A DNA stretch of 18,052 nucleotides, taken from contig CAAEUM010000023.1 of NCBI GenBank assembly GCA_900759225.1, forward strand, positions 1-18,052. The letters are read 5' to 3'. The position numbers and the translations under genes are program-made. The notes under the pieces were generated by a model. It saw only the letters and a list, made by a program, of their open reading frames with translations, searched no databases and was not told the DNA's origin. This document shows positions 3,714 through 16,417 of this stretch, piece after piece. Origin of the DNA: Lachnospiraceae bacterium (lineage in GTDB: Bacteria > Bacillota > Clostridia > Lachnospirales > Lachnospiraceae). Position 1 is the stretch's first letter; every line of letters begins with the position of its first letter.

Positions 3714-5171
3714 TTAAAACAAATCCTTCATAGCTGGATATAATCTTTTGAATTTCTGATACCTCTCCTCATACTTAGCGGCAAGCTCTGGCTCCGGCTC
3801 TATGGTGTCCACAACCTTTACAAGCTTTCTCCCAATGGTCTCTACATCAGGATATGCACCGCAGCCCACTGCTGCAAGCATGGCTCCGCCCATAGCCGGT
3901 CCTTCCTCATGCGCCAGAACATCCACCTTTACATTCATCACATTTGCAATGATCTTTCTCCACAAAGGGCTCTTAGCACCGCCTCCGCAGATTTTTGTAC
4001 GCTGTATCTCAATACCAAGGCGCTTTGCAACCTCAAGAGAATCCCGAAGGCCAAAGGCAACTCCTTCCAATACAGCCTGGGTTAAATCTTCCCTTGTGGT
4101 GTCCATGGACATGCCAAAGAACACACCTCTTGCATCCGGGTTATTGTGGGGGGAACGCTCCCCCATCAGATAAGGAAGGAAAAACACCTGATTTTCCCCC
4201 AGCTTTGTAATACGCTCCTGCTCCCCCGCAAAATCCTTTGTGCCTAAAATCCCCTCTGACCACCATTTATTACAGGAAGCAGCACTGAGCATGCACCCCA
4301 TTAAGTGATAATTTCCATCTGCATGGCCAAAGGAATGAAGGGCATTATTTTCGTCCACCTTAAATTCCCTGCTGGAAATAAAAATGGTTCCAGAGGTTCC
4401 AAGGGAAATATTGCACTGCCCTTCCCCCACGGTTCCGGTTCCCACAGCAGCTGCTGCATTATCCCCGGCTCCTGCCACCACCTTAACACTGAAAGGAAAT
4501 CCCAGCTCCCCGGCAATTTCCGGCTTCAGCACACCTGCTTCCTGCCAGCTTTCGTAAATCCGGGGAAGCTGCTCCCTCCTTACATGACATATTTTAAGCA
4601 TCTCCTCCGACCAGCAGCGGTTTTTCACATCAAGCAGCAACATCCCTGAGGCATCTGACACATCTGTGGAAAAGGCTCCTGTAAAACGGTAAACAAGATA
4701 ATCCTTTGGAAGCATGATCTTTTCAATCTGCTCAAATTTCTCCGGCTCATTCTTTTCCATCCAGAGAAGCTTCGGTGCGGTAAAGCCTGCAAAAGCAATA
4801 TTAGCCGTATATTCAGAAAGCGTTTTCGTTCCAATGACCTGATTGAGATAATCCGTTTCCCGGCCTGTGCGCCCGTCATTCCACAGGATCGCCGGCCTGA
4901 GTACCTCATCCTGGCGATCCAGTGTTACAAGACCATGCATCTGGCCTCCCAGGCCAATTCCGGAAATTTGGGACTTGTCTATATCCCGGGTCAGTTCCTT
5001 CATCCCCTCCATAGCCTGCACAAACCAATCCTCAGGATTCTGCTCCGACCAGCCGGGATGGGGAAATGAAAGCGGATATTCTCTCGATACAATGCCACAG
5101 ACTGTCCCATCCTCCTCCATTAAAAGGAGCTTTACAGCCGAGGTTCCCAAATCAATACCGATATAATACAT
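3714..5171 (-). CDS. xylB: Xylulokinase (FGGY carbohydrate kinase)
   Basis: ATP-dependent phosphorylation of D-xylulose to D-xylulose 5-phosphate, which enters the pentose phosphate pathway; cytosolic. The 485-residue protein has the family's length and motifs: phosphate-binding IDLGTS near residue 6, GGQMHG (75-80), WNDGRT (97-102), the catalytic aspartate in GAGDNAA (D237), SLGTSGT, and GERSPHNNP. These are close to E. coli XylB in wording and spacing. It is the last gene of the araC-DUF4867-isomerase-kinase operon, 14 nt after the isomerase stop, and ends at a bidirectional terminator. The isomerase upstream is not XylA, so the true ketose substrate could be another pentulose. FGGY specificity cannot be fixed from motifs alone, but xylulose is the best guess. 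Confidence 0.88.
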   Translation of the reverse strand: MYYIGIDLGTSAVKLLLMEEDGTVCGIVSREYPLSFPHPGWSEQNPEDWFVQAMEGMKELTRDIDKSQISGIGLGGQMHGLVTLDRQDEVLRPAILWNDGRTGRETDYLNQVIGTKTLSEYTANIAFAGFTAPKLLWMEKNEPEKFEQIEKIMLPKDYLVYRFTGAFSTDVSDASGMLLLDVKNRCWSEEMLKICHVRREQLPRIYESWQEAGVLKPEIAGELGFPFSVKVVAGAGDNAAAAVGTGTVGEGQCNISLGTSGTIFISSREFKVDENNALHSFGHADGNYHLMGCMLSAASCNKWWSEGILGTKDFAGEQERITKLGENQVFFLPYLMGERSPHNNPDARGVFFGMSMDTTREDLTQAVLEGVAFGLRDSLEVAKRLGIEIQRTKICGGGAKSPLWRKIIANVMNVKVDVLAHEEGPAMGGAMLAAVGCGAYPDVETIGRKLVKVVDTIEPEPELAAKYEERYQKFKRLYPAMKDLF

Positions 5172-5185
5172 ATTTTCACCTCACC

Positions 5186-6670
5186 TTAGCCCCATGGATT
5201 TTCTGTGAGATAGCGGACACCTGCTGGCTGGTTATACCCAATCTCCTCCGGCACAACACCTATGTATTTAAACACCTCAAAAAGCTGTTTTCCAAAGTGG
5301 CCGAAGGCAACTGCACCATGATGGGGGAAGTTTTTCTCAATCAATACATGGCGATAAAAACGGCCCATTTCAGGAATTGCAAACACACCAATGGAGCCAA
5401 AGGAACGGGTGGCAACCGGAAGCACCTCTCCCTCTGCAATATAGGCTCTCAGCTGATTGTCAGCGGTGCTCTGCAGTCGGTAGAATGTAATATCGCCGGG
5501 AATGATATCTCCCTCCAGTGTTCCCTGGGTCACCTCCTCCGGAAGGTTTCTTGCCATGATCATCTGATACTTCATTTCGCAGAAGGACAGCTTTCCCGCT
5601 GCTGTATTTCCGCAGTGGAAGCCCATAAAGGTATCCTTCTGGGTATAGTTGAATTTTCCCTTAATATCGCTTTCGTACATATCCTTTGGCACAGAATTAT
5701 TAATGTCAAGAAGGGTAACGGTATCCTGGCTTATTACTGTACCGATAAATTCGCTTAATGCCCCGTAAATATCCACCTCGCAGGATACAGGAATGCCCTG
5801 GGCTGCCAGGCGTCCATTTACATAGCAGGGCACAAAACCAAATTGGGTCTGGAATGCTGGCCAGCACTTTCCTGCAATAGCCACATATTTCCGGTAGCCC
5901 TTATGATCCCTTACCCAGTCCTTTAATGTAAGCTCATACTGTGCAAGCCTTGGAAGGATCTCCGGCTTCTTATTTCCGGCCCCCAGCTCCTCCTCCATCT
6001 CTTTTACAATAGAAGGAATCCGCTCATCCCCCTCATGGCCGTTAAAAGCCTCAAACAGGTCAAGCTCAGAGTTTTCCTCAATCTCCACACCCAGATCATA
6101 AAGCTGCTGGATTGGCGCATTGCAGGCAAGGAAGTTTAAGGGACGCGGGCCAAAGCTTATGATCTTTAAGTCATGGAGCCCAATCACCGCCCTGGCAATA
6201 GGGACAAAATCATGAAGCATGTCTGCACATTCCTCTGCATCCCCCACCGGGTACTCCGGAATATAGGCCTTTACACCTCTCAGCTTTAAATTGTAGCTGG
6301 CATTTAACATGCCGCAGTAGGCGTCACCGCGGCCCTGTACCAGGCTGTTTCCCGATTCCTCTGCCGCAGCCAGGAACATTTTAGGGCCGTCAAAATGCTT
6401 TGCAAGCAGGGTTTCTGAAATTTCCGGACCAAAATTCCCAAGATAAACTGCAAGCGCATTGCAGCCTGCCTTCTTAATATCCTCCAGGGCCTGTACCATG
6501 TGGATCTCACTTTCAACAATACAGACCGGACATTCATAAATCTCCGCTGCGTCATACTTGTCTGTATATGCTTTTACAAGCGCCTTCCTCCGGTTTACCG
6601 AAAGGCTTTCCGGGAAACAATCGCGGCTTACTGCTACAATTCCAATCTTTATCTCCGGCATATTATTCAT
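5186..6670 (-). CDS. L-fucose/L-arabinose isomerase-family sugar isomerase
   Basis: A 494-residue cytosolic metal-dependent aldose-ketose isomerase of the L-fucose isomerase superfamily. Visible landmarks are KCWPAFQTQFG (268-278), CEVDIYG with E298, LLDINN with D322, FHCGN with H352, and FPHHGAVAFGH near 449-459. The 24-residue gap between E298 and D322 equals that between the catalytic/metal-binding Glu337 and Asp361 of E. coli FucI, so the active site looks intact. The protein is about 100 residues shorter than FucI and belongs to the divergent annotated 'fucose isomerase' group, for which substrate is not established. The start overlaps the DUF4867 stop (ATGA) and is preceded by a GAGGGGGG purine run, implying translational coupling. 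With a xylulokinase downstream, D-lyxose, D-arabinose or another pentose is more likely than L-fucose, since no fuculose-phosphate aldolase is present here. Confidence 0.85.
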   Translation of the reverse strand: MNNMPEIKIGIVAVSRDCFPESLSVNRRKALVKAYTDKYDAAEIYECPVCIVESEIHMVQALEDIKKAGCNALAVYLGNFGPEISETLLAKHFDGPKMFLAAAEESGNSLVQGRGDAYCGMLNASYNLKLRGVKAYIPEYPVGDAEECADMLHDFVPIARAVIGLHDLKIISFGPRPLNFLACNAPIQQLYDLGVEIEENSELDLFEAFNGHEGDERIPSIVKEMEEELGAGNKKPEILPRLAQYELTLKDWVRDHKGYRKYVAIAGKCWPAFQTQFGFVPCYVNGRLAAQGIPVSCEVDIYGALSEFIGTVISQDTVTLLDINNSVPKDMYESDIKGKFNYTQKDTFMGFHCGNTAAGKLSFCEMKYQMIMARNLPEEVTQGTLEGDIIPGDITFYRLQSTADNQLRAYIAEGEVLPVATRSFGSIGVFAIPEMGRFYRHVLIEKNFPHHGAVAFGHFGKQLFEVFKYIGVVPEEIGYNQPAGVRYLTENPWG

Positions 6671-7299
6671 TTGAATCCCCCCTCGTATATTTCAATATTA
6701 TCGCCCTTAAGCCCAACAAAAGCGCCCTCAATCCCCGCTTCCTCATGGGCGATCAGCCATTTATTTTTTGCAGCCAAAAGCCTTCCTTCCCCTGTTTTAT
6801 CCACTGGGAAGGTAAGCTCTGTGTTGGTTCCCACAGGAAGCGCCACAACACACATGAAGCCGTCCTCCTCCAGGCTGCAGGGTGCATAATGAAGGGTTGT
6901 TGCATAAATCTCCACGCCGGTTCCTGCAGGTACAAAAAATGCCTCTATTTTTGAGGTATCATAGGTAAAATCCTCCCCTATATCCTGCTGGCAGCCCAAC
7001 AAGAGGACCATGTCCGTAACTGCTATATTAATCTCAGAATTCCTGTGATACTCCACTGCATTTAATTTTTTGTTATAGCCGCAGCAGTATCCAATCTGAA
7101 GGGGCATTCCGCCAAAGCCCTTATTCTGCAGCTGCTTTGCCGCATCCAGGGTCTCCAGCTCCTCCACGACCGGGATATATACCACTTCTTTTGTAATGGG
7201 TGTATGGCGCATCGCCTTTAACATCCCCGTAAAATCATATCCCTGCAGCACACTTCCGTATTTACGGAATTCTTTATCCAATACACTGTAAAGCTCCAT
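6667..7299 (-). CDS. DUF4867 family protein, cupin-like
   Basis: A 210-residue soluble protein that I recognise as the DUF4867 family by its wording (GGMPLQIGYCCGYNKKLNAVEYHRNSEIN). The family has no assigned function that I know of. EYHRNSEIN (H85, E89), VPAGTGVEIYATTLHYAPC (E130, H137) and short beta-rich segments resemble the two metal-binding motifs of a cupin. A Shine-Dalgarno AAAGGAGG lies about 8 nt before the ATG. It sits between the AraC regulator (31 nt upstream) and the isomerase (4-nt overlap), so it is almost certainly part of the same sugar pathway. A sugar epimerase/mutarotase or a second isomerase, by analogy with cupin D-lyxose isomerases, is a guess from fold and context only. 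Confidence 0.8.
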   Translation of the reverse strand: MELYSVLDKEFRKYGSVLQGYDFTGMLKAMRHTPITKEVVYIPVVEELETLDAAKQLQNKGFGGMPLQIGYCCGYNKKLNAVEYHRNSEINIAVTDMVLLLGCQQDIGEDFTYDTSKIEAFFVPAGTGVEIYATTLHYAPCSLEEDGFMCVVALPVGTNTELTFPVDKTGEGRLLAAKNKWLIAHEEAGIEGAFVGLKGDNIEIYEGGFK

Positions 7300-7330
7300 T
7301 TCTTCTCCTCCTTTGTATTATACAGAAAGC

Positions 7331-8236
7331 TTAACAGGAGTTTTCCTTTGTTTCGCCTTTTTTCTTGTCCGGAATCATGCTATTTTTTGACCTTTTATAA
7401 GAATCAGAAGAACTGCCCCTCCTCTGGCCGGCAAACTCGCTGGGCAAAATCCCGTACCGCTTTTTAAATTCTCTGGCAAATCCCCTGCTGCTGCAGAAAC
7501 CATTGTTGAGAGCAATGGTGCTGATGGTGTCATCCGTCGTCATAAGCTCCCTGTAGGCATAGGCCATCCGTATATCCTGAAGATAGGTCTTAAAATTTAC
7601 CCTGGCATACTTCTGAAACATTCTGGATAAATAGGCATCTGAATACCCGAACATGACCGCCAGATCTGACAGCCTTAAATCCTCTCTGTAATGCTCCCGC
7701 ATATAGGTGGTAATTTTTGACAATGCATCCAGCTTCCGGCTATGGCGCACCTCCTTTTCTCCCACCTCCGTAATCCGGTAAGCACTGACAAGCAGGAACA
7801 TGATCTCATTATAGAGTGCCAGGATCTGAAAGGGACAGCCAATCTCCTTTTTCCGGCTTGCCTCATACAATCTTCGGATACACCCGGCCAATTCCTTATT
7901 TTTAGGATGCCCGCTGCTTGTAAAGCGGATAAACCGCTCTGCTGTAAAATAGTCCTCAAACTGTTTTAAGGGAATCTGAAGGACAAGGGTACAGTTTTTC
8001 TCCGGAGCCTGAATCCAGTGTATCTCATTGGAATTAATGATCACCAGCTCCTCCTGCTTTAAGGGGTATTCCCGGTCATTTAAAAACAGGCTCAGCCGCC
8101 CTTCCATTACTGCAAAAATCTCAATGGATGTATGCCAGTGCTTTTCCCGTACATAATTCCCATTGCCGCCCTCAAACAAAAACAGCTTAAAGGGCATCCC
8201 CTGGTCTGTAATAATAAGTTCATGCTGAAGCTCCAT
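7331..8236 (-). CDS. AraC-family transcriptional regulator
   Basis: A 301-residue regulator. The N-terminal cupin sensor (HWHTSIEIFAVMEGRLSL, EIHWIQ) should bind a small ligand, probably the pathway sugar. The C-terminal third has two helix-turn-helix motifs (LSDLAVMFGYSDAYLSRMFQKY and ISTIALNNGFCSSRGFAREFKKRYG), the standard XylS/AraC DNA-binding domain. ATG 8236 is chosen over an earlier in-frame ATG (8263) because AGGAGG is correctly spaced before it. It is the first gene of the sugar operon, so it probably autoregulates and controls DUF4867, the isomerase and xylB. The last ~30 residues, after the second helix-turn-helix, form an unusual lysine/serine-rich tail without family resemblance. 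Confidence 0.92.
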   Translation of the reverse strand: MELQHELIITDQGMPFKLFLFEGGNGNYVREKHWHTSIEIFAVMEGRLSLFLNDREYPLKQEELVIINSNEIHWIQAPEKNCTLVLQIPLKQFEDYFTAERFIRFTSSGHPKNKELAGCIRRLYEASRKKEIGCPFQILALYNEIMFLLVSAYRITEVGEKEVRHSRKLDALSKITTYMREHYREDLRLSDLAVMFGYSDAYLSRMFQKYARVNFKTYLQDIRMAYAYRELMTTDDTISTIALNNGFCSSRGFAREFKKRYGILPSEFAGQRRGSSSDSYKRSKNSMIPDKKKGETKENSC

Positions 8237-8267
8237 TTTCTTCCTCCTGTACGATAGGTTCAAGTAC

Positions 8268-8459: not shown

Positions 8460-9830
8460 TCACTTAAGCTCCAGCCCCTTTTTATATAATTGATAGGTTT
8501 CAAGCCCGGATAGATCCACATCCTCCGTTGTCACAAGCTGCCCTTTCTTCACGCCCCTCAGCAATACTGCGCCATTGAGCAGATAAAACGGTGCCGCATC
8601 TCCTGCTGCGCTGATCTCAAGCAGCTCCGGCACCAGGCCGTCGATGGAATGATGATGGCCTTCAACCTTCAGCACCGTTCCTGCCGGCAGATCCTTCTGC
8701 GCAACGCCTGCCATAACTGATATCTGACGGCACTCCTCATGAGTTCCTATATCCATAAAATCTCCCAGAAGGATTGATACCGGAGTTTCCAGGCCCATAT
8801 AGTGATATGGATAATAAATACAGCAGTATTTACCGTTCCTGCTCATAACATGGCCCTTTCCCTTAAGGATTTCCCACATCTTTTCATTCTCACATTTTAC
8901 AACAATGAACTCTCCTCCGCAGAAGCTTGCTTCATCCTTTCCTCTTAAGTTATAAAATACATCTACAACTCCCTCGCGGTCTAATATACCGCCATCCTCC
9001 TTTGGAATAAAAATATCAGCAAGCTCGCTTACTTTTGCAATGGGATAGCTTAAGAAGGGGGAAGCCGGCGCCATATGGGTAATATTGGATACCAGATTCA
9101 TTTCACATAGATCCGCCGAAATTACCTCTCTGTACTTTTCCAGAAGGCCGCTTCTCTCCTCCAGAGTTTTTGTCCCTTCATAGTACCAGCAATCCTGCAT
9201 CTGCGGAAGCTGTTCACTGGGGGAATTTCCATCCATATAAATAAACTCTCCCGTTTCACGATCCCATACAAAATCGTATTCGCTGGATTTTCCTGCTGCA
9301 ACTACCTCCAGTCCAAGAAGCATTGCCCAGGACCATAAATCCAGCAGATTTCTGGGCTGGTCGCCATTTACAAGGGCATATACTGCATTGTTCTCCTTGG
9401 CAACCTGATTTAAAACAGGGCCGCACACGCTGTCAGTTTCCTTTGATACCATATAAACATTAATACCCTTCTTTAAAGCGGATAAAGCAGCGTCTGAGCT
9501 CACCGCCGTATTTCCGGTACATTCCACCAGGGCAGTAATCCCGCATTCCATTACCAGACGGTAATCACTGACGATCAGGATCGCATCCTCATTCGCTTTT
9601 TCAATCTCTGCCTTATCCTTACATGTCACGATCTTTGATACGTCATAGCCAATTTCTGTCAGAACCTCCAGACATTCCTCCGGATGCCTGGAACAGATAA
9701 CCCGAAGCTCCATCAGCTTCACCTTTGGGATTTGTGCCAGAAGCGTATAACCATATCCTCTTGTTGCCCCTATAATTCCTACCTTTGATTTCTTTCCACT
9801 TTTGTCATGAAGCAATTTTGTATAATCCAT
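8460..9830 (-). CDS. Homoserine-dehydrogenase-like NAD(P)-binding oxidoreductase with C-terminal SAF domain
   Basis: A 456-residue cytosolic protein. Residues 14-150 form a Rossmann domain (KVGIIGATRGYG at 16-27; LVECTGN at 101-106) of the type seen in homoserine/aspartate-semialdehyde dehydrogenases. A middle catalytic-type domain follows, and residues about 372-445 look like a SAF domain (AGVAQKDLPAGTVLKVEGHH ... LRGVKKGQLVTTEDVDL). The family is often annotated 'SAF domain-containing' or 'NAD(P)H-dependent oxidoreductase' and its reaction is not settled. It is the last gene after the GntP permease and the zinc dehydrogenase, with a good GAGGAG site 8-9 nt before the ATG, and ends at a terminator. 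Context suggests oxidation, reduction or isomerising oxidation of an acid sugar. Homoserine metabolism is unlikely here: there is no ACT domain and no threonine genes nearby. Confidence 0.82.
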   Translation of the reverse strand: MDYTKLLHDKSGKKSKVGIIGATRGYGYTLLAQIPKVKLMELRVICSRHPEECLEVLTEIGYDVSKIVTCKDKAEIEKANEDAILIVSDYRLVMECGITALVECTGNTAVSSDAALSALKKGINVYMVSKETDSVCGPVLNQVAKENNAVYALVNGDQPRNLLDLWSWAMLLGLEVVAAGKSSEYDFVWDRETGEFIYMDGNSPSEQLPQMQDCWYYEGTKTLEERSGLLEKYREVISADLCEMNLVSNITHMAPASPFLSYPIAKVSELADIFIPKEDGGILDREGVVDVFYNLRGKDEASFCGGEFIVVKCENEKMWEILKGKGHVMSRNGKYCCIYYPYHYMGLETPVSILLGDFMDIGTHEECRQISVMAGVAQKDLPAGTVLKVEGHHHSIDGLVPELLEISAAGDAAPFYLLNGAVLLRGVKKGQLVTTEDVDLSGLETYQLYKKGLELK

Positions 9831-9859
9831 ATGTGATTCTCCTCTAGTCAGTTTTTTAG

Positions 9860-9899
9860 TAACAGTTCAGCCGTGCATCTTCGCATGGCTGAACTGTTA
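9860..9899. repeat. 17-bp intercistronic hairpin
   Basis: TAACAGTTCAGCCGTGC (9860-9876) and GCATGGCTGAACTGTTA (9883-9899) form a 17-bp stem with one G-U pair in the forward RNA (one A-C mismatch in the reverse RNA) around a 6-nt loop. It fills most of the 75-nt gap between the zinc dehydrogenase and the SAF oxidoreductase. In the operon's direction no T tract follows, so it may protect or process the polycistronic mRNA. Partial copies of one arm occur at 8435-8450 and 14352-14368. Confidence 0.75.
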
Positions 9900-9905
9900 T
9901 GTTTT

Positions 9906-10895
9906 TTATGGGCGGAAGATGATTTTAATAGCCGCATCATCCTTATCGGCCAGGTCAAAGCCTGCTTTTATATCTGCAAGCTGAAACTCATTTGTAATAA
10001 GAGGCTTGATCTTTACAGACCCCTGAATGATCGGGCGCATTGTATCCGGAACCCAGACATAGCGCTGCTGCCAGGTATGATGCACCAGACAGGTATTCAC
10101 AAACTCCAGTCCGTCATCATGCCAGCGGCTGATATTTAATGTCACCGGAGTTGTTACCCAGCTGTAAAATACAAATTTTCCATTATGACGGAGCATTGCA
10201 CTGGCTGCATTGAAGGATGCTTCCGTTCCGGCTGCCTCTACTACTACATCTGCCCCCCGTCCTCCGGTCAGCGCCTTTACCCTTTCAACCGGGTCCTCCT
10301 GACCGGAATGAATGACAATATCCGCTCCCAGGGATTTCGCCAGATCCAGCTTTCCATCCAGCACATCCACCACAATGACCCGGTAAGCGCCTTTCAGCTT
10401 TGCACACTGTGCAATGATCTGTCCTGCGTAGCCTCCGCCCATGACAACAACTGTATCCCCAAGCTGTACTCCTGAATTGAGTCCGGAATACATAGCACAG
10501 GCAGTAGGCTCGCCCAGAGCTGCAATATCCATGTCAAGACCTTCCGGAACAGGCTGAAGCTGAAACTCCTTTGATCTGAAATAGTCGGCAAAATTATTAT
10601 TCCAGCCAAAAGCCATTACCTTATCCCCGGGCTTATAGCCGCTTACACGGCTCCCCACTGCTACAACGGTTCCACCGCTTTCATGTCCTAAAAGGAAGGG
10701 AAATTCGGGCGGCTGCCTGAATTCCGCTGTCTGAGGAGGCATATTTCCTCTGTAAAAGCTTTTATCCGAGCCGCAGATTCCCATTAGATGATTTTTTACA
10801 ATAATATCATCCTCGCCGCACTCCAGCTCACGTTCGATCAGTTCAATATCATAGGCCTTATTGAGCCTTGCTGCACGAGTAATAAATTTTTCCAT
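9906..10895 (-). CDS. Zinc-dependent medium-chain alcohol dehydrogenase
   Basis: A 329-residue NAD(P)-dependent polyol/hydroxy-acid dehydrogenase of the MDR superfamily. Catalytic zinc ligands are C41 (GICGSD), H71 and E72 (GHE), with the usual downstream GEP (E129). The coenzyme fold has GGGYAG (153-158) and D177 at the end of the second strand, which favours NAD over NADP. The structural-zinc lobe with its four cysteines is absent: GDKVMAFGWNNNFADYF runs straight through. ATG 10895 is chosen over ATG 10901 because the GAGGAG site abuts the earlier ATG but is 6 nt from the later one. It starts 16 nt after the gntP stop. Neighbouring permease and otnK/otnC suggest it oxidises a hydroxyl of an imported sugar acid. 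Substrate unknown. Confidence 0.88.
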   Translation of the reverse strand: MEKFITRAARLNKAYDIELIERELECGEDDIIVKNHLMGICGSDKSFYRGNMPPQTAEFRQPPEFPFLLGHESGGTVVAVGSRVSGYKPGDKVMAFGWNNNFADYFRSKEFQLQPVPEGLDMDIAALGEPTACAMYSGLNSGVQLGDTVVVMGGGYAGQIIAQCAKLKGAYRVIVVDVLDGKLDLAKSLGADIVIHSGQEDPVERVKALTGGRGADVVVEAAGTEASFNAASAMLRHNGKFVFYSWVTTPVTLNISRWHDDGLEFVNTCLVHHTWQQRYVWVPDTMRPIIQGSVKIKPLITNEFQLADIKAGFDLADKDDAAIKIIFRP

Positions 10896-10911
10896 ATGCA
10901 TCTCCTCTATA

Positions 10912-12237
10912 TCAGATAATGCCGATAGCTACAAGAATGCAGGTGATGACCGCTCCTGTAAATCCGGCAACTGTAGAAGCTCCGCCTACTGCGCGGATAC
11001 CCTGCTTTACATCCATATTGGACATAGATACAGTTACCCAGAAACCGGAAGAATTTGCATGCTTGAACATGAGAGCGCCGGTTCCGCAAGCCAGGAATGC
11101 CGCTACCGGAGAAATCCCCAGCGTTGCAAGCATCGGCTCTACCAGAGCTGCTGCGGTCATAACTCCCAGAGAGTTGGAGCCTGTCACTACATGGATCAAG
11201 GCTGCAATGATGATCGGGATCAGGATCGCCGGGAAGGATGACTGAGCCACTACTTCTGCGATCTTATCTGCAACGCCTGAGCTTTTTACAAAAGTTGCCA
11301 GAGCGCCGCCCATACCGGTTACTACGATAGGCATTGCTGCAGCAGTAATACCCTCATCTACCCAGTCATTTAAAACCTTCTTTGTCTTCCACTCCTTACC
11401 GCACAGCAGAAGGGACAGGATACATCCTGTAAAGAGCGCAGCCAGAGGGCTTCCGATAAAGGACAGGAAGTTTGCCAGCTCTGTTTCCGGGAAAAGAATG
11501 GAGCCTGCTGTGTTAAGAAGAATAAGGAACAGCGGGAACAGAATCGGAAGCAGGGACTTTGACAGAGACGGAAGCTCAGCATCATTTGTATTCTCTGCTG
11601 CCTTTAAAAACTCCTCCTTTGGAGCTACCGGTGTTTTCAGGGTGATACAGTAAAGGGTTGCACAGATAATACTTGGAACTGCCACAACTGCTCCCCACAG
11701 GATCGCCTGTCCCAGCGGAACCTTCAACAGTGCTGCTGCAGATACCGGGCCTGGTGTAGGCGGTACTAAGGATGCTGTTACCAGAGCGCCTACATACAAT
11801 GCTGTACCATAGCTCATCATGGACTTCTTTGTTCTCACTGCCAGAAGTGATACGATCGGAATCAGCAGGATCACTACTGTATCTGCCCAGATCGGAATAC
11901 CTAGAATACCGGAGCTTAACGCGATTGCCCAGATAATATTTTTCTCACCTACCAAGTTGATCGCCCATTTGGTGATCCGGATAGCCGCCCCCGTTTTCTC
12001 CAGGACCGTACCCATGGTACATCCAAGAAAGATAACGATCGCTACGCTCTTGATCGTTCCCGAAAATCCCCCATTAATCGCGTCTTCAATCTCCTCCCAG
12101 GGAGTTCCCAGAGCAATGGCTAAAATGATGGCCGACATGAGAATCCCCATTGCCGCATTGACCTTGCACTTTGAAATCAGGACGATCATAAGTACAATGA
12201 CAAGGGCAAACACAATCAATACATACGCTGTTGACAT
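10912..12237 (-). CDS. GntP-family gluconate/acid-sugar permease
   Basis: A 441-residue membrane protein with 12 or more hydrophobic segments, in the GntP family of proton-coupled carboxylate permeases. Family hallmarks are VPPTPGPVSAAALL in the middle and the C-terminal HANSSGFW segment. In E. coli the otnK-otnC cluster carries a GntP-family permease (ygbN), so import of a four-carbon sugar acid such as threonate or erythronate is the natural proposal; gluconate itself is possible, but no gluconate kinase is seen. It is the first gene of the reverse operon, with a strong GGAGGAGG site. A sigma-54 promoter lies 47-61 bp before its start and a palindromic enhancer-like element further up. The PrpR-type activator gene is next upstream. 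Confidence 0.92.
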   Translation of the reverse strand: MSTAYVLIVFALVIVLMIVLISKCKVNAAMGILMSAIILAIALGTPWEEIEDAINGGFSGTIKSVAIVIFLGCTMGTVLEKTGAAIRITKWAINLVGEKNIIWAIALSSGILGIPIWADTVVILLIPIVSLLAVRTKKSMMSYGTALYVGALVTASLVPPTPGPVSAAALLKVPLGQAILWGAVVAVPSIICATLYCITLKTPVAPKEEFLKAAENTNDAELPSLSKSLLPILFPLFLILLNTAGSILFPETELANFLSFIGSPLAALFTGCILSLLLCGKEWKTKKVLNDWVDEGITAAAMPIVVTGMGGALATFVKSSGVADKIAEVVAQSSFPAILIPIIIAALIHVVTGSNSLGVMTAAALVEPMLATLGISPVAAFLACGTGALMFKHANSSGFWVTVSMSNMDVKQGIRAVGGASTVAGFTGAVITCILVAIGII

Positions 12238-12283
12238 GTTGCTACCTCCTCCTTACAGTTTGTTTTTGATATTTATCTATACA

Positions 12284-12298
12284 GCATTTTTCGTGCCA
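12284..12298 (-). promoter_or_regulatory. Sigma-54 (-24/-12) promoter of gntP
   Basis: The reverse strand has TGGCAC (12293-12298), 5 nt, then ATGC (12284-12287), which keeps the invariant GG and GC at the correct spacing of the consensus TGGCAC-N5-TTGC. Transcription would start near 12272, 35 nt before the gntP ATG. A sigma-54 activator is encoded next door. Confidence 0.82.
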
Positions 12299-12367
12299 GC
12301 TTTGATCTGCTTGTTTATTTTATTGATTTTTCATTATTTTTTAATTTTTACAGTTTTTTCTAATCAA

Positions 12368-12427
12368 AAATGTGTTGCATTATGCAGCACGATACAACAA
12401 CGTTTTGCAACATAATGCAACACATTT
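12368..12427. promoter_or_regulatory. 17-bp inverted repeat, candidate enhancer for the PrpR-like activator
   Basis: AAATGTGTTGCATTATG (12368-12384) is repeated as its exact reverse complement at 12411-12427, with a 26-bp spacer. The TGTTGCA core recurs: the left arm continues into TGCAGCA, making a small palindrome, and the right arm has TTGCA 6 nt from TGCAA. It lies about 95-155 bp upstream of the predicted gntP transcription start, the normal place for an upstream activating sequence bound by a sigma-54 activator dimer pair. The 222-bp gap between gntP and the activator gene contains this and the promoter, with no clear terminator for the activator gene. Confidence 0.75.
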
Positions 12428-12458
12428 ATTCTTTTTGAGGACTCTATTTTCAAAGCAT

Positions 12459-14330
12459 TTATAAAATTTTATATTTTTTCATTCTTCTCCACAAGGTAGA
12501 GCGATCGATACCCAGCATTTCTGCCGCTTTACTGCGGTTTCCTTTACTCTCTAAAAGGATCCTTTGTATCTGCTCCTGTTCACTTTCAAAAGCAGGCTTC
12601 ACTTTTTCTTTCCCTATATCCCCCGGATAAAGTGCTTCCTGCATCATCTCTCCCGTGATCACTCCGCCCGATCGGATTACAAAAATCCGCTCTGCCAGGT
12701 TATACAGTTCCCTCACATTCCCCCTGAAGGGATATGTATGCAGCAGCGCCAAAGCCTCTTCCTCTACCTGAAGCGGTTCTGTTTCCAGTTCCTTCATTCT
12801 ATGAAGAAACAAAAGTTCCATATCATTTTCCCTTTCCCGCAAGGGAGGCAAAAACAAACGCAGTACATCCAAACGATATACCAGATCGCGCCGGAATTCC
12901 CCGTTATCTGCCATATGGCTAATGCTTTTATTCGTAGCGGAAATAACCCTCACATCCACATTGATTACTTTATTATCTCCCACTCTTCGCACCTGGCGTT
13001 CCTGGAGCACTCGAAGCAGCTTGCTCTGAATAGACATTGAAATTTCCTCTATTTCATCTAAAAACAAGGTCCCCCCATGAGCCTGCTCAAAAAACCCCAT
13101 TTTTCCACCCTTACTGGTTCCTGTAAATGCCCCCTCAACATAACCAAACAATTCACTCTCCAGCAGATTTTCAGGAAGGGCTGCACAGTTGATCGCCACA
13201 AAGGGGCCGTTTCTGCGCTTACTTTCATTATGAATGCTCTGGGCAAAAAGTTCCTTACCCGTTCCTGTCTCTCCTACAATGATCACATTGGAATCTGAGG
13301 CAGCGTAGCGCTTTGCCATAGAAATCGTGCGTTCGATCACACTGCTTTCATGCAGGATATCCTGAAACCGATAACGGGCCTTCAGCCCCCGTTCGCTTAG
13401 CTTGCGGCGAATCTGACTTTCTAAATCCTGTATCTGGGTTACGTCCGATAGATTGAATACAACACCGGAAATTTTTTTATTTACAATTACCGGAGTGCAT
13501 TTTACCGATACCGTATTGCGGGTTCCGGGAATTTTCACCAGGCGCGCCTCCTCCGCTTCTTTTGAGGAAACAACACCTAAAAAGATTTTTTCAAGCCAGG
13601 GGATCGCGTCCTTTAAAGGCCTTTTCATCAGGCTTACATCCCCATTCATTTTGCGTATCACATAATTACGCACCTGTATTATACCCTGGCAATCCACATA
13701 GAGAAGTCCTGCATCCGAAGAATAAATGATCGTCTTATACATTTGCGAGAGTATCCGCTCCTGACGGATCGTGTCCACCGTATGGATTGCCTCATCCATC
13801 GCCTGTGCCAGTGTATCCGCGCCTGTTTTAATAACAACCGCTGGCAGCCCTGCCTCCCTGGCCAGAATATTCGCGGAATATCCGCCTACCAGAGCATCAC
13901 AGCCCGCCTCCCTGGCCTTCTGGATCGCCTGAGGAAGCTCATGATTTTCAACTGGTGCATATACCTCTGCCTCAACCCCAAAAAAGCGGCAGATATCCTT
14001 CGCTCCATAAAGGCGGTTTCCAAATCCGCAGATCGCAATCTTTTTCGGATGATAAAGCTGGCAGCACTCCGAAAGAGCACGCACAATGTCATAACCAGAA
14101 ATCTGCAGGGTAATTGTAGGAATCGAAGAGTAAGCTGCAGATGTTTTCTGCGCTGTGTATCCCCTGGCAATAATGGCATCATACTCCGCCGCAGGAACAT
14201 CCGGCGTTTCTTCCACCGTCATAGTCTTTACCTCTACATTCAGTCGTTTCCGCTCAGGATGGTTTTCCAATACATACTTTACCGTTTCCTCAAGCTCCGG
14301 ATAAGGAACTATAAATAACAAACGAATCAT
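12459..14330 (-). CDS. PrpR-type sigma-54-dependent transcriptional activator
   Basis: A 623-residue enhancer-binding protein. Residues about 10-190 match the propionate-activator (PrpR_N) sensor type that binds a small ligand, and about 195-300 look like a PAS domain. Residues 322-560 form the AAA+ module: Walker A GETGTGKE (353-360), GAFTGT (400-405), Walker B GGTLFLDEIEEI (419-430), sensor ISATN, and the arginine region FRRDLVYRLDVLRL. A Fis-type helix-turn-helix ends the protein (NRSKAAEMLGIDRSTLWRRM, 598-617). The sixth residue of the GAFTGA loop that contacts sigma-54 is threonine instead of alanine. ATG 14330 has GAAGGAG 5-6 nt upstream. It lies between gntP and the divergent otnK-otnC, both with -24/-12 promoters, so it very probably activates both in response to a pathway acid sugar. 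It is unlikely to control propionate use, as no methylcitrate genes are present. Confidence 0.93.
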   Translation of the reverse strand: MIRLLFIVPYPELEETVKYVLENHPERKRLNVEVKTMTVEETPDVPAAEYDAIIARGYTAQKTSAAYSSIPTITLQISGYDIVRALSECCQLYHPKKIAICGFGNRLYGAKDICRFFGVEAEVYAPVENHELPQAIQKAREAGCDALVGGYSANILAREAGLPAVVIKTGADTLAQAMDEAIHTVDTIRQERILSQMYKTIIYSSDAGLLYVDCQGIIQVRNYVIRKMNGDVSLMKRPLKDAIPWLEKIFLGVVSSKEAEEARLVKIPGTRNTVSVKCTPVIVNKKISGVVFNLSDVTQIQDLESQIRRKLSERGLKARYRFQDILHESSVIERTISMAKRYAASDSNVIIVGETGTGKELFAQSIHNESKRRNGPFVAINCAALPENLLESELFGYVEGAFTGTSKGGKMGFFEQAHGGTLFLDEIEEISMSIQSKLLRVLQERQVRRVGDNKVINVDVRVISATNKSISHMADNGEFRRDLVYRLDVLRLFLPPLRERENDMELLFLHRMKELETEPLQVEEEALALLHTYPFRGNVRELYNLAERIFVIRSGGVITGEMMQEALYPGDIGKEKVKPAFESEQEQIQRILLESKGNRSKAAEMLGIDRSTLWRRMKKYKIL

Positions 14331-14382
14331 AGGTTCTCCTTCAAATACTACGTAACCGTTCAGCCGACACGATCATACAGAT

Positions 14383-14411
14383 CTATTGCAACGTCACGTC
14401 TCTTCCGTCAA
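14383..14411 (-). promoter_or_regulatory. Weak candidate promoter of the activator gene
   Basis: Reverse strand TTGACG (14406-14411), 17 nt, CAATAG (14383-14388). The -35 is good and the -10 poor. It is the best vegetative match in the divergent intergenic region, which also holds a GTTGCA half-site resembling the gntP enhancer core. Confidence 0.3.
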
Positions 14412-14433
14412 TGTTCAGTTTAAGGCATAGTTT

Positions 14434-14450
14434 TTGGCATGATCTTTGCT
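14434..14450 (+). promoter_or_regulatory. Sigma-54 (-24/-12) promoter of otnK-otnC
   Basis: TTGGCAT (14434-14440), GATCT, TTGCT (14446-14450): TGGCAT-N5-TTGC matches the consensus except for one C-to-T. Transcription would start near 14460, about 108 nt before otnK. The -12 element runs into TGCTATAAT (14447-14455), a perfect extended -10 hexamer for the vegetative sigma factor, but without a matching -35. Confidence 0.85.
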
Positions 14451-14567
14451 ATAATATATAGTATAGATGTTAGCGGCAGAGGGACGAGCTGTCCTTTATC
14501 CCCGGCATCCAGTATAAGAAGCATTATAAAAACGCGGCCTTGCAATGGCCAGAAAGGGAACAAACAC

Positions 14568-15821
14568 ATGGCTATTTTAGGATGTATTGCAGATGATTTT
14601 ACAGGAGCCAGCGACGCAGCCTCCTTTCTTGTAAAAGGCGGAATGAGTGTCAAGCTTTATAATGGAATACCCGGCCCTCTTTCCAGCACTGAAACGGCCC
14701 AGGCAATTGTTATTGCTTTAAAATCAAGAAGTGAAGACAGAGAAAAGGCAGTAGACGACAGTTTAAATGCAGCTGATTTTCTGTTATCCCAGGGTGTCCG
14801 GCAGATTTATTTTAAATACTGCTCCACATTTGATTCTACACCAGAAGGGAATATCGGCCCAGTAGCAGATGCACTGATGGAGCATCTTAAGGTCTCCTGC
14901 TCACTGCTATGCCCTTCACTTCCTGTAAACGGACGCACCGTAAAAAACGGAATGCTTTTTGTGAACGGAACTCCCCTGGATGAGAGTCACATGAAAAATC
15001 ATCCCCTTAACCCCATGTGGGATTGCCGTATTCCAGAACTCATGAAGCCCCAGAGCAAATATCCCTGCAAAATAATCACACAAAGCCAGATTGCAGAAAA
15101 AGAGGCCTCCTCTCTTTTTTCCCAAAAAAGCGGGCACTTTTATCTGGTGCCCGACTACGAAACAGATGAGGATGGCGCTTTCATTGCAGAGCACTTTGGA
15201 GGATTGACTTTTCTTACGGGAGGAAGCGGACTTCTTTCCCATTTAGCCAGGCGCTGGAGTCAGACACTGGACAGCCTGGGTTTTATTCCCGAAAGCAAAA
15301 CAGACGGCAAGGCACTGCTGATCGCAGGAAGCTGTTCTAAAGCTACTCTTGAGCAGATTGACTGGTATAAAAAACAGGGCTTTCCCTGCTGCAAGCTAAA
15401 GCCCGACTATATGCTGGACGGAAAGCAGACACTGGATGAGGTATGGGATTTCATCAAAGAGAACACCTCCAAGGAGCGCTCTGTACTTGTATACAGCTCA
15501 GATACACCGGAACATGTACAGCAGTATCAGACCCTTGGGCGGGAAACAGTCGCCGGCCTTCTGGAAAACGCTGCTGCCTGCCTTGCAAAAAGGGCGCTGG
15601 ACAATGGCTTTACAAGAATTATTTCCGCTGGAGGCGAAACCTCAGGAGCAGTTACCAAAGGCCTTGGTTTCTGTTCCTACTGGATGGGAGAAAGCGTAGC
15701 TCCCGGTGTTCCTATTATGGTTCCTGCTGAGCGCATGGATGTACGGCTGATTTTAAAAAGCGGCAATTTCGGACAGACTGATTTCTTTACAAGAGCCTTA
15801 GATATGACACAGAGGAGGTAA
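14568..15821 (+). CDS. otnK: 3-oxo-tetronate kinase (DUF1537 four-carbon acid sugar kinase)
   Basis: ATP-dependent phosphorylation of 3-oxo-tetronate to 3-oxo-tetronate 4-phosphate in L-threonate/D-erythronate degradation; cytosolic. The 417-residue protein has the family signatures: ADDFTGASD (8-16), KYCSTFDST (83-91), a PVNGRTV...FVNGTPLDESHM...HPLNPM stretch close in wording to E. coli YgbK/OtnK, the ATP-site GGETSG (355-360) and LKSGNFG (396-402). The frame opens upstream at 14439, inside the promoter, so ATG 14568 with AAAGGGA about 9 nt before it is chosen. It is the first gene of a two-gene forward operon with otnC (stop and next start adjoin). The sigma-54 promoter upstream ties it to the divergent PrpR-like activator. 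The DUF1537 family also contains 3-oxo-isoapionate and D-threonate kinases, but pairing with otnC supports OtnK. Confidence 0.92.
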   Translation: MAILGCIADDFTGASDAASFLVKGGMSVKLYNGIPGPLSSTETAQAIVIALKSRSEDREKAVDDSLNAADFLLSQGVRQIYFKYCSTFDSTPEGNIGPVADALMEHLKVSCSLLCPSLPVNGRTVKNGMLFVNGTPLDESHMKNHPLNPMWDCRIPELMKPQSKYPCKIITQSQIAEKEASSLFSQKSGHFYLVPDYETDEDGAFIAEHFGGLTFLTGGSGLLSHLARRWSQTLDSLGFIPESKTDGKALLIAGSCSKATLEQIDWYKKQGFPCCKLKPDYMLDGKQTLDEVWDFIKENTSKERSVLVYSSDTPEHVQQYQTLGRETVAGLLENAAACLAKRALDNGFTRIISAGGETSGAVTKGLGFCSYWMGESVAPGVPIMVPAERMDVRLILKSGNFGQTDFFTRALDMTQRR

Positions 15822-15826
15822 TGAAC

Positions 15827-16417
15827 ATGGATGAGATACTAAATAAAACGCTTGCGGATGCTGTCTGGGCCGCCCACAGCTTATTCCAAAGAGGAAAAAC
15901 CTCCGGCTCCTCCGCCAATCTCAGCTTCCGCCATAACGGGCAGATTTATATCAGTGCCAGCGGTTCCTGTTTCGGAACCCTGACACCGGAGGATTTCGCC
16001 GTCCTTAACATGGATGGAACTGCCTTAACAGAAAAGAAGCCAAGCAAAGAGTGGCCTCTTCACCTGGCACTTTATGAAAAATCCGATGAGATTCAAGGAG
16101 TGATCCATACCCATAGCCCCTATTCCATACTTGTAAGCTTTATCCCCGGGCTTCCTGAGCATGACTGTATTCCCAGCCACACGCCCTATCTTAAAATGAA
16201 GCTGGGTACCGTAGGTCTTATTCCATATGAAAAACCTGGTTCCCAGGAGCTATTTGACGCTTTCAGGCAAAGGCTTTCCTTAAGCGATGGCTATCTCCTT
16301 CGCAATCATGGCCCTGTAGTTCCAGGAAAGACCATTAAAGATGCCTTTTACTGCCTGGAAGAGCTGGAGGAAAGCGCCAGGATTGCCTGGGAGCTTTACC
16401 GGGCCGGGCTTGGTTAA
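15827..16417 (+). CDS. otnC: 3-oxo-tetronate 4-phosphate decarboxylase (class II aldolase family)
   Basis: Decarboxylates 3-oxo-tetronate 4-phosphate to dihydroxyacetone phosphate and CO2, the step after OtnK. The 196-residue protein has the class II aldolase/adducin fold motifs: TSGSSANLS (25-33), PSKEWPLH with E75, zinc ligands H94 and H96 in VIHTHSPYS, and NHGPVV with H161. The wording is close to E. coli YgbL/OtnC (PSKE, HTH, TPY, NHGPVV). An ATG at 15821 overlaps the otnK stop by one base, but the AGGAGG (15813-15818) is only 2 nt from it and 8 nt from ATG 15827, so 15827 is preferred. L-fuculose- or L-ribulose-phosphate aldolase activity is the alternative, less likely next to otnK. I see no terminator in the 27 bp before the convergent ABC genes. 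Confidence 0.9.
   Translation: MDEILNKTLADAVWAAHSLFQRGKTSGSSANLSFRHNGQIYISASGSCFGTLTPEDFAVLNMDGTALTEKKPSKEWPLHLALYEKSDEIQGVIHTHSPYSILVSFIPGLPEHDCIPSHTPYLKMKLGTVGLIPYEKPGSQELFDAFRQRLSLSDGYLLRNHGPVVPGKTIKDAFYCLEELEESARIAWELYRAGLG

Follow-up and report, generated by a model that had tools for sequence, protein, structure and literature searches.

How a four-carbon sugar acid is converted to 3-oxotetronate is the question raised by a locus of a Lachnospiraceae bacterium (GCA_900759225.1, contig CAAEUM010000023.1) that encodes the kinase OtnK and the decarboxylase OtnC and lacks genes for the enzymes expected to act before them. The region studied, 8460..16417, is part of a window of 18,052 nt, by which we mean the whole stretch of DNA analysed. 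The threonate/erythronate pathway is known to proceed by the consecutive action of LtnD, OtnI, OtnK and OtnC (Zhang et al. 2016, as summarised in PMC12540250). The original prediction for this locus held that the first two enzymes were replaced by two other oxidoreductases, a zinc-dependent medium-chain dehydrogenase/reductase (MDR) and a homoserine-dehydrogenase-like SAF protein. That the two enzymes are replaced is upheld here, and the arrangement was found to recur across many species; the SAF protein is, on sequence and modelled structure, a DXR-II-like oxidoreductase (DLO), kin of the alternative reductoisomerase of the methylerythritol phosphate (MEP) pathway. We give about an even chance to a module in which GntP imports the acid, the DLO alone takes it in one step to 3-oxotetronate in place of LtnD (or DenD) and OtnI, and OtnK and OtnC then lead to dihydroxyacetone phosphate (DHAP).

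The genes gntP, mdr and dlo lie on the minus strand together with that for a PrpR-type sigma-54 activator, and otnK and otnC are divergent on the plus strand:

8460..9830, minus strand: dlo, DXR-II-like oxidoreductase (DRL_cat), proposed to take a tetronate to 3-oxotetronate in one step; PF21135, 87.5 bits
9906..10901, minus strand: mdr, zinc MDR dehydrogenase, exchangeable accessory enzyme; PF08240, PF00107
10912..12237, minus strand: gntP, GntP-family permease, first in the gntP-mdr-dlo operon; PF02447, 286 bits
12283..12298, minus strand: sigma-54 promoter TGGCACGAAAAATGCT, upstream of gntP; 10/11 match
12368..12427, no strand: inverted repeat with 22-nt arms, between the activator gene and gntP, possible upstream activator site
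12459..14330, minus strand: PrpR_N-type sigma-54-dependent activator; PF06506, PF00158, PF02954
14435..14450, plus strand: sigma-54 promoter TGGCATGATCTTTGCT, upstream of otnK; 10/11 match
14568..15821, plus strand: otnK, 3-oxotetronate 4-kinase; NF043035, 422 bits
15821..16417, plus strand: otnC, adducin-type, probable 3-oxotetronate 4-phosphate decarboxylase; PF00596

The identity of the DLO differs from that first proposed. The protein matches PF21135 ("oxidoreductase DRL, catalytic domain"), and the Pfam scan found no separate SAF domain at E ≤ 0.001. Its sole sequence relatives in the PDB at E ≤ 0.001 are 3upl and 3upy (1.7e-29), the DXR-II enzyme of Brucella. A structure model of high confidence (predicted local distance difference test, pLDDT, 93.9), which replaced a poor first model made from a shallow alignment (pLDDT 75), gave 3upl as its top fold match, with template modelling scores of 0.77/0.80, a root mean square deviation of 6.7 and about 21% identity. 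A true homoserine dehydrogenase was rejected, the fold match being 2.1e-34 for 3upl versus 5.2e-8 for ThrA; some source records label DLO proteins homoserine dehydrogenase, and the identity established here warns against that name. DLO is used as a loose label and not as a placement in either published clade. DXR-II was described with two sister clades, DLO1 and DLO2, uncharacterised in 2013, and four of their members were unable to replace DXR in dxr-deficient E. coli, according to the part of PMC3847144 that treats them. In the tree, the DLO of the window stands apart from 3upl (support 100/99).

The active site was compared in a MAFFT alignment of 38 Firmicutes-type and 12 other rows, those of 400 aa or less being excluded. 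The DXR-II residues K191, E141 and E232 are kept in all 38 Firmicutes-type and all 12 other rows, and appear in the window as K181, E131 and E243. The position of K193 is Ser in 37 of the 38 Firmicutes-type rows (Thr in one) and in 12/12 others, S183 in the window. T229 stands opposite D240 in the ungapped segment running to E232/E243, where MAFFT instead places T222. The DXR-II phosphate anchors K191/K193/T229 thus read K181/S183/D240, and two of the three are lost, which would suit an unphosphorylated substrate in a step before the kinase. A role in the MEP pathway was likewise rejected, given this loss and because 21 of 23 genomes encode a canonical Dxr (G008 and G022 do not). DXR-II and the proteins of DLO1 and DLO2 (PMC3847144) resemble the window protein in the DRL_cat domain, the overall fold and the conserved lysine and acidic residues; the window protein differs from DXR-II in its phosphate anchors, its sequence and its acid-sugar context.

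The enzymes downstream of the DLO are those that had been predicted, since family scans confirm the kinase, decarboxylase, GntP permease and sigma-54 activator. OtnK exceeds the NF043035 cut-off of 350 bits, and its start is likely at 14568, the listed open reading frame (ORF) start at 14439 being over-extended. OtnC is recognised as Aldolase_II (PF00596 only) and reaches 175 bits on NF043034, under the cut-off of 250, as do three OtnCs from LtnD-type Lachnospirales loci (172.6-195.1 bits). Neither an LtnD-type nor an OtnI-type profile hidden Markov model (HMM) matched any of 41 window ORFs of at least 80 aa, and a Pfam scan of 14 window ORFs, in which no DenD-specific model was run, found no LtnD-, OtnI- or DenD-type family. 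The claim that ltnD/denD and otnI are absent from the locus therefore stands for LtnD and OtnI, and for DenD as far as that scan of 14 ORFs.

The recurrence of this arrangement was surveyed by scanning species-representative genomes with two short peptide patterns taken from the DLO alignment, which yielded 52 loci (40 Firmicutes-type, L036 included, 11 Halomonadaceae and one Falsochrobactrum). OtnK was found in 33 of these (28 Firmicutes-type, five Halomonadaceae, none in Falsochrobactrum) and OtnC joined DLO and OtnK in 29 of the 33; these counts are lower bounds because some contigs are short, 22 of the 33 loci being at least 18 kb. The LtnD-type HMM matched in 0/52 DLO loci and the OtnI-type HMM in 0/33 loci with DLO and OtnK. 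Four of the 11 halophile loci have the order dlo-tctCBA-otnK-otnC and L049 another, while three of four further ones read dlo, tctC, tctA, otnK, otnC.

Searches were extended to the whole genomes of 27 DLO carriers, 23 Firmicutes-type and four halophiles. Over the curated cut-offs, both OtnI and LtnD were found in 0/23 Firmicutes-type and 4/4 halophile genomes, and OtnK in 20/23 and 4/4, respectively. Since presumed local LtnDs and isomerases score under these cut-offs, a narrower statement at E ≤ 1e-3 is safer: 11 of the 23 Firmicutes-type genomes have no OtnI-family match at that level, and in five of these 11 (G002, G006, G010, G021 and G022) the LtnD matches are none or short Rossmann pieces. 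Of the five, G002, G010 and G021 have an OtnK over its cut-off; the OtnK of G022 falls slightly short (341 bits) and that of G006 is partial.

For comparison, OtnK contexts were collected from a sample of the order, 392 genomes with G003 as the search centre. Thirteen had OtnK over the cut-off: five in LtnD-type loci with a TIM barrel, two with a distant MDR and a TRAP transporter, one with DLO and five with other or scant context. The DLO form is thus the rarer one in this sample; in a family sample of 150 genomes, PF21135 occurred in seven, four of them with window-type DLO, G003 included. An isomerase-like TIM barrel was present in 5/5 LtnD-type loci found via OtnK (L079, L080, L081, L086, L089) and an isomerase-like gene in 0/33 loci with DLO and OtnK (Fisher test, 2e-6; related rows were counted separately, and the HMM was built with the help of some of these five loci). 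The Halomonas LtnD loci L053 and L054 also carry OtnI, and were left out of the count because they had been chosen for their OtnI matches. On the LtnD model the presumed local LtnDs score 158-198 bits (three of the five tested) and carry the NCBIfam name 2-hydroxy-3-oxopropionate reductase; the local TIM barrels have psicose 3-epimerase as top model and are matched by NF043033 at 1e-9 to 1e-10. Because the curated cut-offs alone proved unreliable for LtnD and OtnI of Firmicutes, they were supplemented by local HMMs and by E-values over whole genomes. In two of the loci collected here, L087 (7391-15105) and L090 (5127-13912), otnC-otnK lies with genes for a distant MDR, a PrpR_N sigma-54-type activator and a TRAP transporter (DctM), and the locus gave no match of LtnD, OtnI or DLO type; this MDR may be another substitute entry enzyme. 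Fusions were seen in L086 (8604-10637), of a TIM-barrel isomerase-like domain with OtnK, and in L088 (8431-10320), of OtnK with an Aldolase_II (OtnC-type) domain.

The kinases suggest which intermediate is shared. The OtnKs of the DLO halophile operons L042 and L048 share 70.6-78.6% identity with those of the LtnD/OtnI operons L053 and L054, and 71-75% with the OtnK next to otnI in L055; all eight halophile rows group together in the OtnK tree (100/100), with the Firmicutes kinases outside. The halophile OtnCs also score alike (349, 347 and 341 bits; the DLO-linked versus LtnD-linked pair 349 and 347). Because OtnK and OtnC are alike in DLO- and LtnD-linked halophile operons, both kinds of operon should supply the kinase with one and the same substrate. 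The locus may serve a different acid, but the two enzymes indicate 3-oxotetronate as the compound at which the routes converge. From these sequences the OtnK-OtnC pair seems to have become linked to DLO on more than one occasion, in keeping with 3-oxotetronate as shared intermediate; repeated joining is not proven, since the tree requires just two changes of label.

In the proposed module, a sigma-54-controlled set of genes would serve the catabolism of a C4 sugar acid, and from the genes and their neighbours we infer its reaction, isomer and cofactor and the role of the MDR. GntP would import the acid, or a close precursor which the MDR would convert to it. The DLO, using NAD(P), would take tetronate to 3-oxotetronate in one step, either by oxidising the hydroxyl at C3 directly or by oxidation at C2 combined with an enediol shift within that enzyme. 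Phosphorylation at C4 by OtnK and decarboxylation by OtnC would then give DHAP. That the DLO yields 3-oxotetronate by itself is the most likely reading of the gene content. Direct C3 oxidation is favoured by simplicity, by the C4-acid context and by a distant kinship with homoserine dehydrogenase, and an oxidoisomerase by the DXR-II fold; sequence cannot separate the two mechanisms. We regard it as unlikely that the DLO is such a one-enzyme oxidoisomerase, a DXR-II run oxidatively that oxidises the acid and shifts the carbonyl (or, in a branched acid, the carbon) to give 3-oxotetronate; if it is, a single reaction logic would unite the acid-sugar DLOs with the DXR-II of isoprenoid synthesis.

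Other explanations place the burden elsewhere. The DLO may be a C2 dehydrogenase only, giving 2-oxotetronate, with 3-oxotetronate supplied by an unlinked TIM-barrel isomerase or by spontaneous enolisation, an alternative that is serious if improbable; L055 and the OtnI-family proteins of many DLO genomes, both detailed below, speak for it, and the 11 of 23 Firmicutes genomes without such a match at E ≤ 1e-3, and the lack of an isomerase-type gene in all 33 loci with DLO and OtnK versus its presence in 5/5 LtnD-type loci, speak against it. A branched substrate, which the DLO would oxidise while shifting carbon in the reverse of the DXR-II reaction to give 3-oxotetronate or a close analogue, is quite improbable. 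It would agree with 3upl being the top fold match over the length of the DLO and with the retention of K181, E131 and E243, and a D-apionate oxidoisomerase acts in another DUF1537 pathway, where a DUF1537 kinase follows an oxidising and isomerising step. Against it, OtnK reaches 422 bits on the 3-oxotetronate kinase model and 117 on that for OiaK (cut-off 700), no lactonase or RuBisCO-like protein occurs among the 14 Pfam-scanned window ORFs, and formation of 3-oxotetronate would by our reasoning need migration of a carboxylate. The OiaK score also led us to reject an OiaK-type isoapionate pathway, and sets the locus apart from the D-apionate oxidoisomerase pathway (NF042436).

It is very doubtful that the MDR is the real acid dehydrogenase, acting at C3 like threonine 3-dehydrogenase, and the DLO does something else, e.g. 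serves a second epimer. The MDR does resemble the Tdh and IolM models (126-140 bits, far under their cut-offs), and in L087 and L090 a distant MDR (26-29% identity) accompanies otnK-otnC, TRAP and a PrpR_N activator without DLO; nevertheless, 19 of the 33 loci with DLO and OtnK have no MDR, its presence flips nine times in the DLO tree, and both of the genomes with window-type MDR also carry DLO. Least probable, and only barely credible, is that OtnK and OtnC act on 2-oxotetronate, so that an isomerase is not needed. An OtnI-free three-step L-threonate bypass of this kind, comprising LtnD, 2-OtnK and an F_bP_aldolase-type OtnC, is known (Guo et al. 2024, as summarised in PMC12540250). The present locus shares with it the absence of OtnI, and differs in having no LtnD, an OtnK over the 3-oxotetronate kinase cut-off and an OtnC of adducin type (PF00596) rather than the aldolase type given for the bypass in that summary.

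Several observations weigh against a one-step DLO or its tie to OtnK. In Halomonas locus L055 (792-5457) a distant DLO (26% identity) adjoins otnK, otnC and otnI, so some DLO may make only 2-oxotetronate, and the locus may represent this replacement carried out in two steps. OtnI-family matches under the cut-off occur in 12/23 Firmicutes genomes, and several Firmicutes genomes encode LtnD-like proteins that score 150-216 bits, comparable with the presumed local LtnDs. NF043033 was matched in all 15 proteobacterial DLO genomes (the four halophiles over the cut-off, and a further 11/11, ten of them over it), so an isomerase acting in trans is possible in proteobacteria. The only DLO beside OtnK in the order sample is that of the centre G003, with 0/12 among the other OtnK genomes; metagenome-assembled genomes may be incomplete, and the LtnD and OtnI labels of the comparison group are drawn from context because their NCBIfam names differ. 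Coupling to OtnK is also not universal. OtnK was not seen nearby in 6/11 halophile loci and 1/4 further ones, L025 has gntP-mdr-dlo and no OtnK over the cut-off in its genome, and L031 and L034 couple DLO to transaldolase- and IolO-like genes. In these two loci (L031, 10001-14135; L034, 9007-13393) a window-type DLO adjoins transaldolase-like, GntR-type and IolO-like genes without OtnK, and an IolO-like TIM barrel is found in three OtnK-free DLO loci in all (L021, L031, L034).

If the one-step reading is true, gut Lachnospiraceae, and perhaps halophiles, would have a threonate/erythronate route with one enzyme fewer. The locus shares with the LtnD-OtnI-OtnK-OtnC pathway the kinase, an OtnC that is of adducin type by its Pfam domain, an acid transporter and a presumed DHAP product, and is unlike it in having neither an LtnD-type gene nor OtnI, a DXR-II-like oxidoreductase instead, and sigma-54/PrpR-type control. 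Absence of OtnI alone is not new, since the OtnI-free pathway summarised in PMC12540250 is already known. A DXR-II-like oxidoreductase as entry enzyme appears to be new within the literature searches made, which at abstract level found no later assignment of function for DLO or COG4091, and its linkage to OtnK and OtnC provides a concrete substrate class for relatives of DXR-II.

Shared sigma-54 control, as first proposed, is borne out by near-consensus promoters that precede both operons and recur at gntP and otnK in Firmicutes loci. TGGCACGAAAAATGCT lies about 45 nt 5' of gntP and TGGCATGATCTTTGCT about 117 nt 5' of otnK, within the over-extended ORF. The window has six sites of at least 9/11 versus 2.2 in shuffles, and therefore position and recurrence outweigh the count. 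Among Firmicutes loci, sites of at least 10/11 within 250 bases of the gene start were found for gntP in 17/19, otnK in 17/28 and dlo in 14/38, and for mdr in 1/17, otnC in 0/24 and prpR in 0/31, with shuffled means of 0.03-0.14. Because the sites recur at gntP, otnK and dlo, transporter, oxidoreductases and kinase look like one sigma-54 regulon. A conserved activator site in the 22-nt inverted repeat was not supported: its motif precedes just 3/20 gntP genes, that of the window included, which makes this evidence weak.

The MDR was correctly described as a zinc enzyme without structural zinc lobe. It carries ADH_N and ADH_zinc_N, with orthologue matches starting at residue 3, and its sequence has GICGSD, GHES and LGEPT and no visible four-Cys lobe. 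It is not an obligatory replacement enzyme: MDR is found in 17 DLO loci, all Firmicutes-type (17/40), and among those with OtnK is present in 14 and absent in 19, so that, among the genes compared, no oxidoreductase other than the DLO occurs in every one of these loci. The two proposed replacements therefore reduce to a core DLO and an exchangeable MDR.

An amidohydrolase occurs in eight Firmicutes-type loci, six with a KdgT permease and two with TctA; in the six, among them L024 (7835-9960), KdgT and the amidohydrolase replace GntP and MDR beside DLO. The amidohydrolase reaches 190 bits on a Xaa-Pro dipeptidase model (cut-off 500) and may serve to free the acid from an ester or an amide. MDR and amidohydrolase share none of the 40 loci (hypergeometric P 0.006, rows not independent), and the sister DLOs of L008 and L024 (98/98) differ by a swap of the two. 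This mutual exclusion and swap suggest that transporter and accessory enzyme are exchangeable around a DLO-OtnK-OtnC core. Of the nine changes of MDR presence in the DLO tree at least five are forced by the starred branches, and of the 392 genomes sampled from the order two, the search centre among them, have window-type MDR (E ≤ 1e-80). The MDR probably feeds the shared pool with another isomer or with a precursor in reduced form. In L103 (3522-8251), PrpR-gntP-mdr stands without an adjoining dlo, which lies on another contig of the same genome.

The remaining large ORFs of the window encode a BrnQ-type transporter, an acyltransferase, a xylB-side operon and unassigned products, and a plasmid search gave no match. 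The separate operon at 3714-8263 comprises a xylulokinase-type FGGY kinase, a fucose-isomerase-C-type protein (66.8 bits to the sulfoquinovose isomerase model, cut-off 700), DUF4867 and an AraC regulator, and probably encodes a separate sugar pathway. In L058 and L059, from other genomes of the family, a DXR-II-like protein is flanked by a fucose-isomerase-like protein (24-27% to that of the window) and an MDR (25-26%), and these loci may represent another uncharacterised sugar pathway. A tRNA-Leu gene (AAG anticodon) lies at 2134-2219, about 6.2 kb from the region studied.

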